From Oscillospiraceae bacterium (lineage in GTDB: Bacteria; Bacillota; Clostridia; Oscillospirales; Ruminococcaceae), in assembly GCA_014799395.1 (NCBI GenBank), contig JAAVID010000003.1:1-35498 (forward strand): 35,498 nt of DNA, read 5' to 3'. Under the pieces are notes generated by a model. The model worked only from the letters and a program-made list of their open reading frames with translations, had not been told where the DNA came from and did not search any database. Within the stretch, counting starts at the first letter, position 1. Every line of letters begins with the position of its first letter. The position numbers and the translations under genes were made by a program. Shown here in pieces: positions 9,268-13,981 of this stretch.

Positions 9268-9268
9268 A

Positions 9269-9300
9269 AAAAGAGGTAATGTATATTACCTCTTTTTATT
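9269..9300. terminator. Bidirectional terminator between convergent operons
   Basis: A 12-bp perfect stem (9269-9280 with 9285-9296) with a 4-nt loop has A-runs on the left and T-runs on the right. It serves the metF operon (plus) and the sirtuin operon (minus). Confidence 0.9.
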
Positions 9301-9302
9301 TG

Positions 9303-10175
9303 TTAATTTTTCAGCTCGTCGAGCACCTTTGAAATATCCCCGTCAATAAGGATAGACTGCCCGGCAATCTCTTTCGGACAGCCGGTTTCTCCGAGATTTA
9401 CGCACACGTACTCCGCATTAGGATTTGCGGCGGTAAGTTTCCAAAACGGATATTTGATAATAACGGGCGTATTGTAGCCGACTCCCAGCTCAAGATACAA
9501 TACCCGTGAATGCTTCCGCGAACGGATAAAATCCGAATAGCGCTCCGCCGCCTTATGCCAGCCTTCGTCCTCGACAAATGTGTCGTCGCAGCGCAAATTC
9601 ATTGTGAGCGGCTTTCCGCAGTGAGGACATTTCGGAACTAATTCGGACGGTATTTTCATATCGGACTGCCGTTCGTACATCTGCCTGATAATTTCCTCGT
9701 TATCGAACGTTTCGTTGCAGCAGGGCTCGGAGCATTGAAACAGCCCGTAATCTCCCTGCGTGTAGAACAGTCGCTCCTTGTCAAATCCGGACTTCTGAAA
9801 ACAGTGGTCGACGTTTGTGGTTATCACAAAATAGTCCTTGTTTTTCACAAGTGAGAACAGATCGCCGTAAACCGATTTCGGCGGCTTGGTAAAGCGGTTC
9901 AGCATTATGTTCCTGCTCCAGAACGCCCACATTTCCTCCGCCGTTTTATACGGAAAAAATCCTCCCGAATACATATCGTGAAAGCCGTATTTCTCCTCAA
10001 AATCGGCGAAATTATCGCGGAAACGCTCGCCCGAATAGGTATAACCCGCCGCCGCGGAAAGCCCCGCGCCCGCGCCTATCACTACCGTCTCCGCGTTGTC
10101 AAGAGCCGATCTCAGCCGCTCGCTCTCAACCGAGTAATCGTTTGTAGATCTCGTAGTCATTGTCCTTGAAAACAT
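9303..10175 (-). CDS. SirTM-type (class M) sirtuin, probable protein ADP-ribosyltransferase
   Basis: This 290-residue protein has GAGAGLS at 34-40, a YSGERF segment, ITTNVDH near 119-125, a zinc-binding set (CSEPCC and later CPHC) and ELGVGYNTP near the C-terminus. The place of the usual catalytic His reads TQGDYG, with a Gln. As I recall, this substitution is a hallmark of SirTM enzymes, which ADP-ribosylate proteins rather than deacetylate them. The GAGGTGA site 7 nt before the ATG at 10175 supports this start, so the gene overlaps the macrodomain gene by 50 nt. SirTM and macrodomain genes form known writer/eraser pairs. This is the last gene of the ACGX-peptide operon. The substrate here is unknown. 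Confidence 0.88.
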   Translation of the reverse strand: MFSRTMTTRSTNDYSVESERLRSALDNAETVVIGAGAGLSAAAGYTYSGERFRDNFADFEEKYGFHDMYSGGFFPYKTAEEMWAFWSRNIMLNRFTKPPKSVYGDLFSLVKNKDYFVITTNVDHCFQKSGFDKERLFYTQGDYGLFQCSEPCCNETFDNEEIIRQMYERQSDMKIPSELVPKCPHCGKPLTMNLRCDDTFVEDEGWHKAAERYSDFIRSRKHSRVLYLELGVGYNTPVIIKYPFWKLTAANPNAEYVCVNLGETGCPKEIAGQSILIDGDISKVLDELKN

Positions 10176-10896
10176 TAAATATCACCTCAATATTTTGCTC
10201 GTTTTGCAGATAATCCCTTACTGTCTTAACGGCGATCTCCGCGGCTTTTTCGTTCGGGAAGCGAAACTCTCCCGTTGATATACAGCAAAACGCAATGCTC
10301 GATATTCCGTTTTGCACCGCCGTTTTCAGGCACTCGCGATAACAGGAGCTCAACTGTTCGCAATGCTCCTCGGTCAGCCTCCCTCCGACATACGGTCCTA
10401 CCGTGTGGATAACTTTTTCGCACGGCAGATTATACGCGTCGGTTATTTTCGCTTGACCGACGGGTTCTTCAACTCCCTGAGCGTTCATTATCTTACCGCA
10501 CTCAAGACGTAACTGCACTCCCGAAAAAGTGTGAATTGCGTTGTCGATACAGCCGTGGCACGGGCAGAAACAGCCGAGCATTTGCGAGTTCGCGGCGTTG
10601 ACTATCGCGCCGCATTTCAGCGTTGTAATATCGCCTTGCCAAAGGTAAACGCGCGGCTTTATCGGCGTTAGATCCTTGTAATCAACAATGCCCTTTTCTG
10701 CGATAGTCTCCCTAAGAAATTCGTCCTGAAAGCCGAGAAACTCCTCGGAGAGCGGCTTGGGAGCGCGCACGTTCACAAGACTGCGGAACAGCCGAAAACG
10801 CTCCTCCGCGCCGTCGGGAACCGAAATATTTTTATAATCCGCGTTTTCCGACAGCAGATTTTTTATTAAATACGATAGCTTTTCCGAACGGTTCAT
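10126..10896 (-). CDS. Zinc-type macrodomain protein-ADP-ribose hydrolase
   Basis: This 256-residue protein has a helical N-terminal extension (about 1-75) and a macrodomain. The macrodomain contains WQGDIT, IVNAANSQMLG, a Cys/His cluster CFCPCHGC typical of zinc-containing macrodomains, the VIHTVGP strand and a CISTGEFRFP loop near residue 210. It removes ADP-ribose from modified proteins. I chose the ATG at 10896 over a TTG at 10917 that lies inside the upstream gene. Only 4 nt separate it from the ferredoxin-fusion stop, and its end overlaps the sirtuin start by 50 nt. It is the presumed eraser for the sirtuin next to it. Confidence 0.88.
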   Translation of the reverse strand: MNRSEKLSYLIKNLLSENADYKNISVPDGAEERFRLFRSLVNVRAPKPLSEEFLGFQDEFLRETIAEKGIVDYKDLTPIKPRVYLWQGDITTLKCGAIVNAANSQMLGCFCPCHGCIDNAIHTFSGVQLRLECGKIMNAQGVEEPVGQAKITDAYNLPCEKVIHTVGPYVGGRLTEEHCEQLSSCYRECLKTAVQNGISSIAFCCISTGEFRFPNEKAAEIAVKTVRDYLQNEQNIEVIFNVFKDNDYEIYKRLLG

Positions 10897-10900
10897 AATT

Positions 10901-11515
10901 TTATCCCAGCCTTTCAACAGCCTTTACGGGGCAGTTTTCATAGCACGCGCCGCAGTGCAGACAATTCTCGGGAATAATTTCAAACGGCTTTCCCGCTTTT
11001 ATACAGCGCTGTGGACAAACCTTTGCGCATTTTCCGCACCCGATACATTTATCGGTTATTTTGTAGCCCTTATACTCCGCCTTGCCGTTCCCGATAACGT
11101 AGACCTCTCTGAAAATAGGATTTACGCCGAGATTAAAATATTCAATTTCCGCGTCCTTTATTTCAAAAATAATACCGATATTTCTTGTATCGTCGGGGTA
11201 GACGTTTGCGAGATACGGCTGTTCTTCAAAGATAGTATCGATACAAGCGCCCTGCCGTTCGTCCGATACGGGAACGGCTTTCGCGGAAAGCCTTATCATT
11301 TCCTTAAAGCGCGTGTAGGCGAGTATCTGTACTCTGCCGTCCTCAAGAAGCTCGCGGCAGAAGTTCTTTCCTCTCGCGGTAAAGAAATAAAAGCTCTCCT
11401 CGTCAAAGTGAATGGCGCTGATACAGCGTATCTGCGGAGCGCCGCTCCCGTCGACGGTAGCGAACGACAGCACCCCGACAAGCCTTAGTTTTTCAAGACA
11501 AGTTTTCGCGTCCAT
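10901..11515 (-). CDS. FMN-binding split barrel (PNPOx-like) fused to 2[4Fe-4S] ferredoxin
   Basis: This 204-residue protein is a fusion. Residues about 1-140 form a pyridoxamine-5'-phosphate-oxidase-like flavin-binding split barrel (GVLSFATVDGSGAPQIR, FYFFTARGKNF). Residues about 153-202 form a two-cluster ferredoxin (CIGCGKCAKVCPQRC and CLHCGACYENCP). Such fusions are cytoplasmic flavin/Fe-S electron-transfer proteins of unclear substrate. The ATG directly follows the nitroreductase stop (TAA-ATG), with GGAGGAC just upstream inside that gene. In this operon it could reduce the radical SAM enzyme or work with the nitroreductase, which is inference from neighbourhood. Confidence 0.88.
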   Translation of the reverse strand: MDAKTCLEKLRLVGVLSFATVDGSGAPQIRCISAIHFDEESFYFFTARGKNFCRELLEDGRVQILAYTRFKEMIRLSAKAVPVSDERQGACIDTIFEEQPYLANVYPDDTRNIGIIFEIKDAEIEYFNLGVNPIFREVYVIGNGKAEYKGYKITDKCIGCGKCAKVCPQRCIKAGKPFEIIPENCLHCGACYENCPVKAVERLG

Positions 11516-12103
11516 TTATTTGTCCTCCGCTCCGATTATTTTTACCCTGTTCGGCTTTCTCGGCTTGGTGTGCGGCTGTTCGCCGTCGATATAGCCGAGA
11601 ATAACGAAGCATATGCAGGAATAGTTTTCGGGAATTTCCCATTTTTTCAACAGCTCCGCGCCCTCGTCGTTATCGAATGTCTCTTCGCCGCGCGAGATAA
11701 TGCAGGACGAAATGCCAAGCTCGGTGGCTTGCAAAACCATATTTTCCGCGATACAAAACGCGTCTGCTACGCGGAACGCGAAATTATTCTGCCCGAAAAC
11801 CGCCGCAACGCACGGCGCACCGTAAAATCCGTTTTTAATGCTCGGGTCGTCGATAGTGCTCGGCTGTTCGGCGGAAACATAAGAGCCGACAAGCCGCGAG
11901 CGGTCGAACCTCGCGAGGTTCATAACCCCGAGCTTTGCCGTAAGCGCCTTATCGCGGATACCGACTATCATGCTCCGCTGACCCCCGCCCGCGTTCGGCG
12001 CGTAATTTCCCGCTTCAAGAATAAGCTCCAGATCGGCGCGCGAAATTTGTTTGTCGGTATATTTCCGTATCGAATGACGAGCTTTTATCAGATCCATTAA
12101 CAT
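11516..12103 (-). CDS. Nitroreductase-family flavoprotein
   Basis: This 195-residue FMN-dependent NAD(P)H oxidoreductase has the family N-terminus (KARHSIRKYTDKQI), a YAPNAGGGQ segment for FMN contact, and the AENMVLQATELGISSC helix. The ATG at 12101-12103 overlaps the maturase stop as TAATG and has AAGGAG 8 nt upstream within the maturase gene. A much longer upstream reading would run through the radical SAM gene and is rejected. Such enzymes reduce nitroaromatics, quinones or enones and are often controlled by HxlR regulators such as the one encoded divergently here. Confidence 0.88.
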   Translation of the reverse strand: MLMDLIKARHSIRKYTDKQISRADLELILEAGNYAPNAGGGQRSMIVGIRDKALTAKLGVMNLARFDRSRLVGSYVSAEQPSTIDDPSIKNGFYGAPCVAAVFGQNNFAFRVADAFCIAENMVLQATELGISSCIISRGEETFDNDEGAELLKKWEIPENYSCICFVILGYIDGEQPHTKPRKPNRVKIIGAEDK

Positions 12104-13134
12104 TACGAAAACTCCTTCCAGCACTGCGGGTCGGCGGCGTAGAAATTGCCGTTTTTGCCGCTCGCCACGGCGGGACAGCCTCTGCACCACGATTTCAGTT
12201 CGCATTTCGCGCATTTCTCGAATTTCGAGTAGTCGCGGTATTGCTCCATTTCGCACACCCAGACGTCGGCTATCCTGTCCTCGAAAACGTTGCCGACCTT
12301 GCTGTTCCGCACTCGGCGGCAGGCGAATATATCGCCGTTCGGGAGTATCGTAAGATGACAGTTCCCGCAGTTGCAGCCGCCGTATATCATATCCTTATCG
12401 GCGTTTTCGGGAATTTTGAACGTGCCGGTTTCGTAGTCGTACAGCGTCCACAAATGGTCCTTTTTATTGAAATAGGTCGTGCAGCCCCGTGCCTCGTATT
12501 CCTTGAATTTCTTGTCGCATAATTCCAGCAATTCGCGATAACGCATAGGCTCGATATTCGTGTCCTTTTCTTCGCTCGTCGGGCAGTACCGCGCGAACGC
12601 GAAAACGTCCGCCCTGTCCGCGACGGTATCGATGATGTCGGGTATTTCCTCGATATTCGTTCCCGAAACGGTAGTCATAACCACCGCGCGAATTCCCGCT
12701 TTTTTAACGCAGTCCAGCTTTTCAAGCGTGATGTCAAAGCTCCCCGCCTTGCGGAACCAATCGTGCGTTTCCCTCATTCCGTCGATAGAGAGCTGATACT
12801 TTTCACAGCCGAGCGACTTTAATTCACGGCAGACATCGTCGTTCAGATGAAACGGATTTCCGAGTATCGTAAATTTTATTTCGTGCTTTTTCAATAATTT
12901 CAAAAGCTCCCAAAAATTCGGGTGAAGAATAGGGTCGCCGCCCGTTATGTAAAAATACGGCAGACGCTTATAAACCTTGCAGAAATCAAGGCAGTTATAA
13001 AAGGTATCTTGAATTTGTTCCCAATCCATGGAATCAAGCGCCTTGCAGTTATTCTCGGAGAAGATATAGCAGTGCTTGCAGCGCTGGTCGCAGTCGTCTG
13101 TGATGTGCCACTGAAAGGAAAAGTATTTGCTCAT
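12103..13134 (-). CDS. Radical SAM/SPASM peptide maturase, ACGX system
   Basis: This 343-residue enzyme has the radical SAM cluster motif Cys15-x3-Cys19-x2-Cys22 (CDQRCKHC), the SAM-binding variant ITGGDP near residue 65, and a C-terminal SPASM-like region. That region has GGCNCGNC, a FACRR site and CAKCELKSWCRGC followed by a late Cys, for auxiliary Fe-S clusters. It lies 98 nt after the gene of a peptide made of ACGS repeats. This matches the NCBIfam/TIGRFAM class 'radical SAM protein, ACGX system', recalled and not searched. SPASM maturases install carbon- or sulfur-centred crosslinks in Cys-rich peptides. The chemistry in this family is not established to my knowledge. Confidence 0.9.
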   Translation of the reverse strand: MSKYFSFQWHITDDCDQRCKHCYIFSENNCKALDSMDWEQIQDTFYNCLDFCKVYKRLPYFYITGGDPILHPNFWELLKLLKKHEIKFTILGNPFHLNDDVCRELKSLGCEKYQLSIDGMRETHDWFRKAGSFDITLEKLDCVKKAGIRAVVMTTVSGTNIEEIPDIIDTVADRADVFAFARYCPTSEEKDTNIEPMRYRELLELCDKKFKEYEARGCTTYFNKKDHLWTLYDYETGTFKIPENADKDMIYGGCNCGNCHLTILPNGDIFACRRVRNSKVGNVFEDRIADVWVCEMEQYRDYSKFEKCAKCELKSWCRGCPAVASGKNGNFYAADPQCWKEFS

Positions 13135-13181
13135 TGCAGTTACCTCGTGTATATTTATCGGTTTCCCGAATTATTTCGTAT

Positions 13182-13208
13182 ATTCCCGAATTTTTTTAAT
13201 TCGGGAAT
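13182..13208 (-). promoter_or_regulatory. Intercistronic hairpin between ACGX precursor and maturase
   Basis: An 11-bp perfect stem (13182-13192 with 13198-13208) with a 5-nt loop lies 24 nt after the peptide stop. On the minus-strand RNA it is not followed by a U-run, so it is not a normal terminator. A second copy of the 3' arm (aattcggg) follows at about 13165-13172 and could pair instead. It may protect the peptide mRNA or set the peptide-to-enzyme ratio. Confidence 0.55.
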
Positions 13209-13232
13209 GTCCGTGATTATCCCGAAAGATAA

Positions 13233-13433
13233 TTACTTGTCGCCCGCTCCGCAGGCAGAACCGCAAGCGGAAGGCTTGTCACCCGAGCCGCACGCCGAAG
13301 GCTTATCGCCCGAACCGCAAGCGGAGGGCTTGTCGCCCGAACCGCAAGCCGCAGGCTTGTCGCCGCTGCCGCAGGCGGACATTGCCGCAACATTGTTGTC
13401 GCTGTTCCAATCGGATAAATTTGCAAGTGCCAT
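13233..13433 (-). CDS. ACGX-repeat RiPP precursor peptide
   Basis: This 66-residue peptide has a short leader of about 19 residues ending in VAAMS. A core follows with four ACGSGDKP(S/A) nonapeptides, then ACGS and ACGAGDK. Cysteines are at 21, 30, 39, 48, 57 and 61, so the spacing is 9, 9, 9, 9, 4. GGAGGTC lies 6 nt before the ATG. The ribosome-binding site, promoter and immediately downstream SPASM maturase all support translation. The 27-nt units differ at synonymous sites while the peptide is kept. The final product, its processing and its export are unknown. No protease or ABC transporter is in this operon. Confidence 0.9.
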   Translation of the reverse strand: MALANLSDWNSDNNVAAMSACGSGDKPAACGSGDKPSACGSGDKPSACGSGDKPSACGSACGAGDK

Positions 13434-13477: not shown

Positions 13478-13506
13478 ATTCTAACATATCGGACAATCGT
13501 TTACAA
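13478..13506 (-). promoter_or_regulatory. Promoter of the ACGX-sirtuin operon
   Basis: On the minus strand, TTGTAA (13501-13506) and TAGAAT (13478-13483) are 17 bp apart and about 45 nt upstream of the precursor ATG. Confidence 0.65.
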
Positions 13507-13527
13507 GTACGCACTTTTTTATTACAT

Positions 13528-13545
13528 AGTTACCTTTCGGTAACT
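13528..13545. promoter_or_regulatory. 18-bp inverted repeat, candidate HxlR operator
   Basis: AGTTACC and GGTAACT are perfect 7-bp arms around TTTC. The repeat lies 22 bp upstream of the -35 of the peptide operon and 39 bp upstream of the -35 of the HxlR gene. Its position in the divergent control region and its symmetry suit a dimeric winged-helix regulator. Confidence 0.55.
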
Positions 13546-13584: not shown

Positions 13585-13613
13585 TTGACTTTTTTAAGCA
13601 TATATATTATAAT
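13585..13613 (+). promoter_or_regulatory. Promoter of the HxlR gene
   Basis: TTGACT (13585-13590) and TATAAT (13608-13613) are 17 bp apart, about 40 nt before the ATG. Confidence 0.8.
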
Positions 13614-13654: not shown

Positions 13655-13981
13655 ATGCTGACAAAAGATGAAATGCCCGCTTGCCCCGTCGCTACGACCG
13701 TCGCGCTTATCGGAAGCAAATGGAAGCTCCTGATAATGCGAAATCTGCTCTCCCGCCCCTGGAGATTTAACGAACTGCGCAAGGATTTGGAGGGCGTAAG
13801 CCAAAAGGTGCTTACCGACAGCCTCCGCTCAATGGAGGAGGACGGGATAATCATACGCACCGTTTTCCCCGAGGTGCCGCCGCGCGTAGAATATTCGCTC
13901 TCCGAGCTCGGAGAATCAATGCGCCCGATAATGGACGCAATGGAGGTCTGGGGAACGGAATACAAGAAAAACAAAGCCTAA
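13655..13981 (+). CDS. HxlR-family winged-helix regulator (probable thiol/electrophile sensor)
   Basis: This 108-residue protein has the HxlR pattern: Cys10 in PACPV, then IGSKWKLLIMRNLL, the recognition region RFNELRKDLEGVSQKVLTDSL and the wing with PRVEYSLSELG. The N-terminal Cys is at the position used by redox- or electrophile-sensing relatives such as YodB and HypR, which control nitroreductase or azoreductase genes. GGAGG precedes the ATG. It is transcribed away from the ACGX-sirtuin operon, which includes a nitroreductase, so it is the likely regulator of that operon. Confidence 0.9.
   Translation: MLTKDEMPACPVATTVALIGSKWKLLIMRNLLSRPWRFNELRKDLEGVSQKVLTDSLRSMEEDGIIIRTVFPEVPPRVEYSLSELGESMRPIMDAMEVWGTEYKKNKA

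Follow-up and report, generated by a model that had tools for sequence, protein, structure and literature searches.

We analysed 35,498 nucleotides of DNA from an Oscillospiraceae bacterium (GenBank assembly GCA_014799395.1, contig JAAVID010000003.1), referred to here in full as the window, whose minus strand carries at 13433-9303 an operon joining the genes of an ACGX-repeat ribosomally synthesized and post-translationally modified peptide (RiPP) to those of a class M sirtuin (SirTM) and a zinc macrodomain. A sequence-only reading had proposed six minus-strand genes here; all six are open and could be assigned to families. The first (13233..13433) encodes a 66-residue ACGX-repeat precursor with the leader MALANLSDW, six Cys-Gly pairs and 27-nt repeats, scoring 61.7 bits against TIGR04341 (target_ACGX, cut-off 28). 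It is followed by a 343-residue radical SAM/SPASM maturase (12103..13134) with the cluster motif CDQRCKHC, scoring 590.6 bits against TIGR04340 (rSAM_ACGX, cut-off 400), and by a 195-residue nitroreductase-family flavoprotein (11516..12103; PF00881, 79 bits), whose ATG lies within TAATG. Next come a 204-residue fusion of a PNPOx-type FMN domain to a 2[4Fe-4S] ferredoxin (10901..11515; PNPOx_N PF01243 plus 4Fe-4S motifs; hereafter PNPOx-Fd), a zinc macrodomain of the ADP-ribosyl hydrolase family (10126..10896; NF003163, 349.8 bits, cut-off 272; Macro PF01661) with an intact CxxxxHxC loop and Dx3H, and the SirTM (9303..10175; 5a3a, E 5e-72), in which Asn121 and Arg195 accompany a Gln140 that replaces His.

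The genes are packed as tightly as had been described. The maturase stop and the nitroreductase start have one base in common (TAATG at 12105-12101), the nitroreductase and PNPOx-Fd genes abut, and PNPOx-Fd is separated from the macrodomain by 4 bases, counted from the ATG at 10896 (the list of open reading frames has an earlier TTG). The macrodomain and sirtuin genes overlap by 50 bases when the first ATG is taken as the start. The hairpin noted earlier between precursor and maturase (13140..13236, minus strand) stood up to folding against 200 shuffles (-24.6 kcal/mol, z -3.59, 0/200 shuffles as good); because no U run follows its stem, it would more likely set the ratio of peptide to enzyme than end transcription.

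Several elements absent from the sequence-only reading frame this set. A divergent gene on the plus strand (13655..13981) encodes an HxlR-family (DUF24) regulator (PF01638, 105 bits; RrpB/RrpA-like below cut-off), preceded by a sigma-70-type promoter, TTGACT-17-TATAAT (13585..13613, plus strand; 11/12 matches in the promoter scan). The operon promoter (13478..13506, minus strand; 9/12 matches) has a -35 TTGTAA, a 17-nt spacer, a -10 TAGAAT and an extended TG. Overlapping its -35 is a conserved 29-bp motif (13502..13530, minus strand; core GTGCGTACTT at 13514-13505), a putative HxlR operator, so that promoter and operator together span 13530-13478. Past the sirtuin lies a terminator-like hairpin (9268..9297), listed on the plus strand and having a T run on the minus strand too. 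The operon is therefore bounded on both sides. Separate promoters or terminators between the genes had been named as a sign of mere neighbours: the scan of the window listed no terminator-like site at the gene junctions, whereas 2 weak promoter-like sites fall in the precursor-maturase gap (11 sites in the scan against 5.4 expected), where a second transcription start may lie. No known RNA family was found in the window at gathering score.

By their scores over curated cut-offs, the precursor and adjacent maturase are members of the ACGX RiPP system, which bears out the Cys-repeat precursor and SPASM maturase proposed earlier. We took as named loci the best 80 of 568 relatives in a genome collection, most of them from metagenome-assembled genomes. 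A Cys-Gly precursor reading frame was found in 69 of the 73 named loci with more than 700 nt upstream. Across the 73 readable named-locus precursors, an M[AGS]L...W leader occurs in 70 and the C-terminal pattern in 69; Cys is followed by Gly in 261 of 263 cases (non-overlapping scan), and each precursor has 2 to 15 Cys (median 6), with spacings mainly of 4 and 13 residues. After its own family, the maturase scores best in NCBIfam against SbtM (TIGR04082), with 169.2 bits along its length, below the cut-off of 350. SbtM converts peptide Cys to thiooxazole, as stated in the available text of PMC11002830, and by analogy this suggests a similar product for the ACGX maturase.

Variants of the maturase were also seen. 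At L011 / L040 (genome G136), Arg stands for the second cluster Cys (CDQRRKHC), together with other odd changes, while the rest of the operon is present; this maturase is possibly inactive, or there is a sequence error. An IMG/VR contig (L127) encodes an ACGX maturase 56% identical to the window's; the peptide leader there differs, and downstream follows an HxlR-like gene in the same orientation. Three more distant relatives (L248, L249 and L250, family f78; 37-38% identity, 285-308 bits, below cut-off) show no ACGX peptide reading frame within 700 bases upstream, and their genomes gave no SirTM match at E<=1e-40. A 78% identical maturase is filed under Candidatus Brocadia (L087, PHFX01000078.1), and is probably on a contaminating Clostridia contig in that assembly.

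The sirtuin matches SIR2 (PF02146) weakly, at 21.4 bits against a gathering score of 24. Its Asn121, Gln140 and Arg195 align with Asn118, Gln137 and Arg192 of the Streptococcus pyogenes SirTM (5a3a), whose mutation dramatically lowers activity according to the available text of PMC4518038. The Gln replacing the catalytic His is kept in 53 of 54 linked SirTM copies, the remaining copy having a gap. The zinc loop of the macrodomain, GCFCPCHGCIDNAIH, matches the eight-residue CxxxxHxC pattern and is accompanied by Dx3H; these residues are kept in 42/42 linked macrodomain copies. The best solved matches of the macrodomain are the zinc macrodomains 8rsi and 5kiv, with residues 1-255 aligning to 8rsi. 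With Gln for His, the Asn and Arg partners, and a gene overlapping that of a zinc macrodomain, the sirtuin is on sequence grounds a SirTM, and it is predicted to be an ADP-ribosyltransferase of this class. The matches to 8rsi, 5kiv and 5a3a thus agree with the zinc macrodomain and ADP-ribosylating sirtuin named beforehand.

The idea of a writer without an eraser was set aside: of 13 genomes with SirTM but no macrodomain directly beside it at the ACGX locus, 12 encode a zinc macrodomain over cut-off somewhere in the genome, and five of those 12 best matches are marked with one in-frame stop. In G350 (L102), SirTM lies in the ACGX operon and no zinc macrodomain match was found genome-wide, so that here either the writer lacks its eraser or the assembly is incomplete. 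SirTM-like genes of a divergent kind (33-39% identity) occur at L207, L208, L209, L212, L213 and L214, and also at G309:C65 and G306:C2; no zinc macrodomain was found at the six of these loci that were fetched (L207, L208, L209, L212, L213, L214). In several genomes (G293:C29, G139:C22, G159:C34, G309:C65, G306:C2) two or three SirTM-like genes stand in tandem.

The joining of these two parts is the central observation, and it recurs. In a class sample of 391 genomes, a maturase over the TIGR04340 cut-off was found in 16 and SirTM (E<=1e-40) in 66; SirTM is present in 16/16 maturase-positive and in 50/375 maturase-negative genomes (Fisher p 8e-14, uncorrected for descent). The two genes lie less than 5 kb apart on the same strand in 13 of the 16, the exceptions being G036, G659 (a partial match, 47% identical) and G693. 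In an order sample, which overlaps the class sample in its genomes and used a SirTM cut-off of E<=1e-10, SirTM was found in 11 of 12 maturase-positive genomes against 51 of 283 others (p 1.7e-7, again uncorrected for descent). At the same cut-off, 70 of the 80 named maturase genomes (46/50 + 24/30) gave a SirTM match, two of them doubtful (the G320 sirtuin is 27% identical, and the G328 match is a 52-residue fragment). Of the 80 named loci, 40 have SirTM and 30 the macrodomain no more than 6.5 kb from the maturase; of the 59 whose sequence extends 5 kb or more past the maturase start, 35 have SirTM nearby. Of the 54 linked loci, 50 have their genes collinear on one strand. The remaining four comprise one with the pair on the hxlR side in the opposite direction (L036), two with the macrodomain elsewhere (L062, L108) and one with an MDR oxidoreductase before the maturase. 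Linked records not marked as metagenomic include Agathobaculum sp. Marseille-P7918 (L074) and Oscillibacter valericigenes An411 (L083). Over a set of 97 loci, which includes duplicate records, contig ends and three viral-collection contigs, HxlR was counted 75 times, the precursor 73, the nitroreductase 61, the FMN-ferredoxin fusion 51, SirTM 45 and the macrodomain 36.

The two parts also appear to share a regulatory site. The only Cys of the window's HxlR protein, a PF01638 member, lies in its N-terminal ACPV motif, and an N-terminal Cys-Pro motif is found in 79 of 83 HxlR proteins from ACGX loci. For the motif, the 97 loci were reduced to 90 by dropping L033, L034 and L035 (the same records as L089, L071 and L074), L045, L046, L128 and L129. 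The core GTGCGTACTT occurs upstream of the maturase in 74 of these 90, some of which are cut by contig ends, and in 72 of the 74 sites a -10-like hexamer stands at a fixed offset from the motif start (26 at 30 nt, 46 at 31 nt). Several sites contain a dyad such as GCACAATATTGTGC. A 29-bp weight matrix was trained on ACGX sites alone and counted as passing where its score exceeded the 99th percentile of controls made by block shuffling. It was applied to 56 SirTM loci that do not belong to intact ACGX operons (2 of 58 were dropped for having less than 700 nt upstream). It passes in 31 of the 56, and in 25 of the 27 with HxlR; because the matrix was built from ACGX loci only, its success at peptide-free SirTM operons is not circular. 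Among 58 SirTM loci, none had an ACGX-type peptide with at least 3 ACG[STAG] next to SirTM on its strand. We also chose 26 regions from maturase-positive genomes in which SirTM lies elsewhere, a selection and not every such trans case; two (L293, L294) had too little upstream sequence, and 15 of the 24 assessable loci pass. Among regions holding a second SirTM copy (L302-L306), two pass, two fail and one has too little upstream sequence.

In the window's genome, a 21-bp form of the motif occurs once within 3 mismatches, at the operon site. Two further exact copies of GTGCGTACTT lie inside genes read by eye as encoding pyruvate phosphate dikinase and a phage capsid protein; three core copies in 2.76 Mb is about what chance would give, and these extra copies were therefore set aside as regulon sites. 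The GTGCGTACTT half-site is not known to belong to regulators of the YodB, HypR, QsrR or RrpB type, although no search aimed at this was made. Since the motif stands upstream of both parts even when they are apart, the two look like one HxlR-type regulon, operating in cis or in trans.

The reductases were examined at 59 named loci. Close to the maturase, 42 of them encode a nitroreductase and 16 an MDR (ADH_zinc_N) oxidoreductase, a family assigned from one example; the two were never found together, one locus has neither, and the reductase usually sits just after the maturase. From what is known of these families, their presence fits a response to quinone-like or other electrophiles. The oxidative or electrophile stress setting proposed by the sequence-only reading thus receives indirect support from the HxlR Cys-Pro motif and from a reductase near the maturase at 58/59 loci, the signal itself being inferred.

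That reading had also suggested the ferredoxin fusion as the dedicated reductant of the maturase, and this did not hold up. PNPOx-Fd also occurs where SirTM is present but an intact maturase is not: 27 such loci were found, two of which (L160, L260) look like ACGX-operon remnants, and both ferredoxin motifs are kept in 27/27, as they are in 52 of the 56 copies at ACGX loci. Such loci speak against a dedicated role. Among the 59 ACGX loci PNPOx-Fd is associated with SirTM (26/9/9/15, p 0.007); its occurrence without a maturase, together with this association, argues for placing it with the ADP-ribosylation side of the set. In L162, L164, L242 and L306 SirTM is followed by a DUF5131 gene (the L074 copy matches PF07505); such a gene also stands downstream of the maturase in 8 of the 80 named loci.

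Together, these observations support a link between the peptide and ADP-ribosylation systems that goes beyond mere neighbours; the sequence-only reading as a whole is partly supported. Rare co-occurrence of the two pairs had been named as the outcome that would make them neighbours only; what was found instead is co-occurrence in 16/16 and 11/12 genomes, frequent adjacency and collinearity in 50/54 linked loci. The promoter is conserved, with a site over its -35 beside a divergent hxlR, the genes are tightly packed, their linkage is recurrent, and the same site is found at peptide-free SirTM operons. From these parts we consider it reasonably probable that the locus is a single HxlR-controlled thiol- and electrophile-stress operon, which would combine an intracellular sulfur-bearing peptide, reductases and reversible ADP-ribosylation.

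Such an operon might work as follows. Electrophiles or oxidants would likely modify the HxlR Cys and free the promoter, and the reductase and flavin-ferredoxin protein would likely then detoxify or re-reduce. The peptide, made in excess of its maturase by virtue of the hairpin between them, could plausibly be given a sulfur-based modification at its Cys-Gly sites, perhaps thiooxazole, and remain inside the cell, carrying sulfur in a redox-active or scavenging role. Naming of the neighbour clusters by eye revealed no exporter or peptidase that keeps a fixed position next to the locus (12/80 loci have an ABC ATPase type and 6/80 a MATE type, at scattered places), so the peptide is probably intracellular. 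Finally, SirTM would place ADP-ribose on a member of the set and the zinc macrodomain would remove it, giving an off/on switch; which member carries it is a guess.

By analogy with the staphylococcal and streptococcal operon, the peptide would correspond to GcvH-L and the maturase to the lipoate ligase, and we regard the peptide, tentatively, as a candidate ADP-ribose acceptor. GcvH itself gave no GCV_H (PF01597) match at E<=0.001 in the window's genome, and GCV_H is over cut-off in 4 of 24 maturase-positive genomes, so that in most of these genomes SirTM must have some other target. The parallel layout, with a small sulfur partner, a dedicated modifier, SirTM, a macrodomain and flavoenzymes, makes the peptide a natural candidate. 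In its full form, which we hold to be rather unlikely, the proposal is that the matured ACGX peptide is the SirTM substrate: a redox-active sulfur group would be formed at Cys-Gly, ADP-ribose would then be added to a neighbouring Asp or to the sulfur group, and the macrodomain would reverse this. If so, reversible ADP-ribosylation would gate a ribosomal peptide that acts inside the cell as a reusable redox carrier, and this peptide would be the first SirTM substrate other than GcvH-L.

A number of observations weigh against a tight union of the two parts. One order-sample genome (G151) has no SirTM match, and SirTM is adjacent to the maturase in only 6 of the 12 (G000, G031, G067, G136, G161, G282; in G094 the linkage may be split by contig ends). 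No SirTM match was found in 10 of the 80 named genomes, SirTM and macrodomain are both nearby in only 28 of the 80 loci, and at 24 of the 59 loci whose downstream DNA is long enough no SirTM lies 6.5 kb or less from the maturase. Only 19 of the 54 linked loci carry precursor, maturase, reductase, PNPOx-Fd, macrodomain and SirTM in this order. The motif is missing from 9 of the 24 trans SirTM loci, four of which (L280, L282, L284, L286) have a more distant SirTM type, 44-52% identical; and the control of motif and operon by HxlR is itself putative. SirTM occurs without a maturase in 50 of the 66 SirTM-positive class-sample genomes, so across species SirTM must have targets other than the peptide, which tempers the case for the peptide. 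No Asp/Glu or Cys pattern differing between SirTM-linked and unlinked precursors was recognised by eye, those at loci without SirTM retaining the same Asp/Glu positions. Two loci retain remnants upstream of an intact macrodomain-SirTM part, a 56-residue maturase piece in L160 (G273) and a 62-residue nitroreductase piece in L260 (G565). The peptide part can therefore be lost while the ADP-ribosylation part stays, and SirTM does not need the peptide.

One alternative, which we take seriously while not expecting it to prove correct, is a single regulon without biochemical crosstalk, in which a single operator would govern two separate answers to the same stress and the SirTM target would be a housekeeping or stress protein encoded elsewhere. 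The existence of SirTM/zinc macrodomain operons with HxlR and motif and without peptide, the frequency of SirTM without maturase and the failure of any peptide residue, by eye, to track SirTM are as this alternative would have it. It accounts less well for the retention of SirTM in most maturase-positive genomes (16/16, 11/12 and 70/80) and for the recurrence of the same one-strand order across the SirTM tree, which is more than a shared stress alone needs. A less likely alternative is that PNPOx-Fd is the ADP-ribosylated target, as it often stands beside the pair in both ACGX and maturase-free SirTM operons. The two ferredoxin motifs at the 27 loci and the association with SirTM described above would suit such a role, whereas 9 of the 35 ACGX loci with linked SirTM and sufficient DNA lack PNPOx-Fd, and it was detected in only 16 of 58 SirTM loci.

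Descent explains a part of the pattern. The SirTM tree (130 rows, from 137 after dropping those under 240 aa or with stops) was built by a quick method with no bootstrap and carries long-branch warnings. On it, the label 'ACGX-linked' needs 22 changes, at least 9 of them forced by starred branches, where shuffled labels need 41. The maturase tree has 63 rows, and on it 14 changes are needed for the label 'SirTM nearby' (3 or more of them forced), compared with 19.4 for shuffled labels. The changes on both trees indicate that the link was made or broken several times. Both labels are also clustered (0/500 shuffles as low on the SirTM tree, 6/500 on the maturase tree), and several SirTM-positive, maturase-negative genomes belong to the same genera as positives, so part of the co-occurrence follows descent, which again counts against the stress-operon reading. 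That the arrangement reflects chance neighbours, or one ancestral accident passed on by descent, is nevertheless highly improbable: some co-occurrence is clade-wise, and set against this are the 22 changes with at least 9 forced, the motif at trans loci and adjacency in 13 of 16 genomes, counts that speak against it unless the samples are badly biased. We set aside as scarcely credible an exported bacteriocin or anti-phage defence cluster, which might be suggested by the Cys-rich RiPPs and sirtuins that occur in such systems and by a weak PADLOC viperin match of the maturase (56.5 bits), given that PADLOC returned no model for either sirtuin or macrodomain at E<=0.001, that no exporter or peptidase was recognised by eye at a fixed place, and that the maturase scores 590 bits in its own family.

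Under the favoured reading of a single stress operon, the locus offers a short list of candidate SirTM targets in a genome with no GcvH detected, and the ACGX peptides gain a likely physiological setting, HxlR-type stress control, along with partner enzymes. Few targets of this modification are known; because the arrangement is found again in many related species, the peptide or its partners become candidates that can be tested, and labelling the handful of operon proteins could address both the SirTM-target and the ACGX-function questions. Open-access literature, outside whose coverage most subscription journals fall, yielded no relevant paper, judged by title among the matches listed, on the ACGX system, none on the TIGR04340/TIGR04341 models or ACGX peptide function, none on SirTM with radical SAM or on macrodomain, sirtuin and HxlR together, and none by title on a RiPP joined to SirTM.

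The closest known arrangement is the extended SirTM operon of Staphylococcaceae and Lactobacillales, which comprises GcvH-L, LplA2, zinc macrodomain, SirTM, OYE and LLM (Rack 2015, PMC4518038; Ariza 2024, PMC11490716). There, in the available text of both papers, lipoylated GcvH-L is ADP-ribosylated on Asp and the zinc macrodomain reverses this, with two flavin-type oxidoreductases alongside; the corresponding text of Ariza 2024 gives GcvH-L as the only known SirTM-modified protein, the targets of other SirTM/zinc-macrodomain systems being unknown. As in that operon, a macrodomain lies beside SirTM, the Asn/Gln/Arg residues and zinc loop are present, flavin oxidoreductases belong to the set, and a small sulfur-bearing partner comes with its own modifying enzyme; oxidative stress there is paralleled by a stress-type regulator here. 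Unlike it, the window's operon genes do not include GcvH-L or LplA2 (no genome-wide search for LplA was made), a ribosomally made Cys-repeat peptide, served by a radical SAM maturase, is the small partner, and an HxlR gene and motif are present. The minimal macrodomain-SirTM operons (PMC4518038, PMC11490716, available text) have the same pair as here, whereas many in Clostridia carry the HxlR-type motif and some a PNPOx-Fd gene. With the ACGX RiPP system (TIGR04340/TIGR04341) the locus shares precursor and maturase, to which the reductase, HxlR gene, motif and SirTM pair are additions. SbtM (TIGR04082) likewise acts on Cys of a short peptide, as given in the available text of PMC11002830, although the window's maturase falls below its cut-off; similarly, the HxlR/DUF24 redox regulators YodB, HypR, QsrR and RrpB share family and N-terminal Cys with the window's HxlR, which falls below the RrpB cut-off. 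The parts thus belong to known families, and their joining in one operon under an HxlR-type motif is, as far as open-access searches show, a new type of extended SirTM operon.

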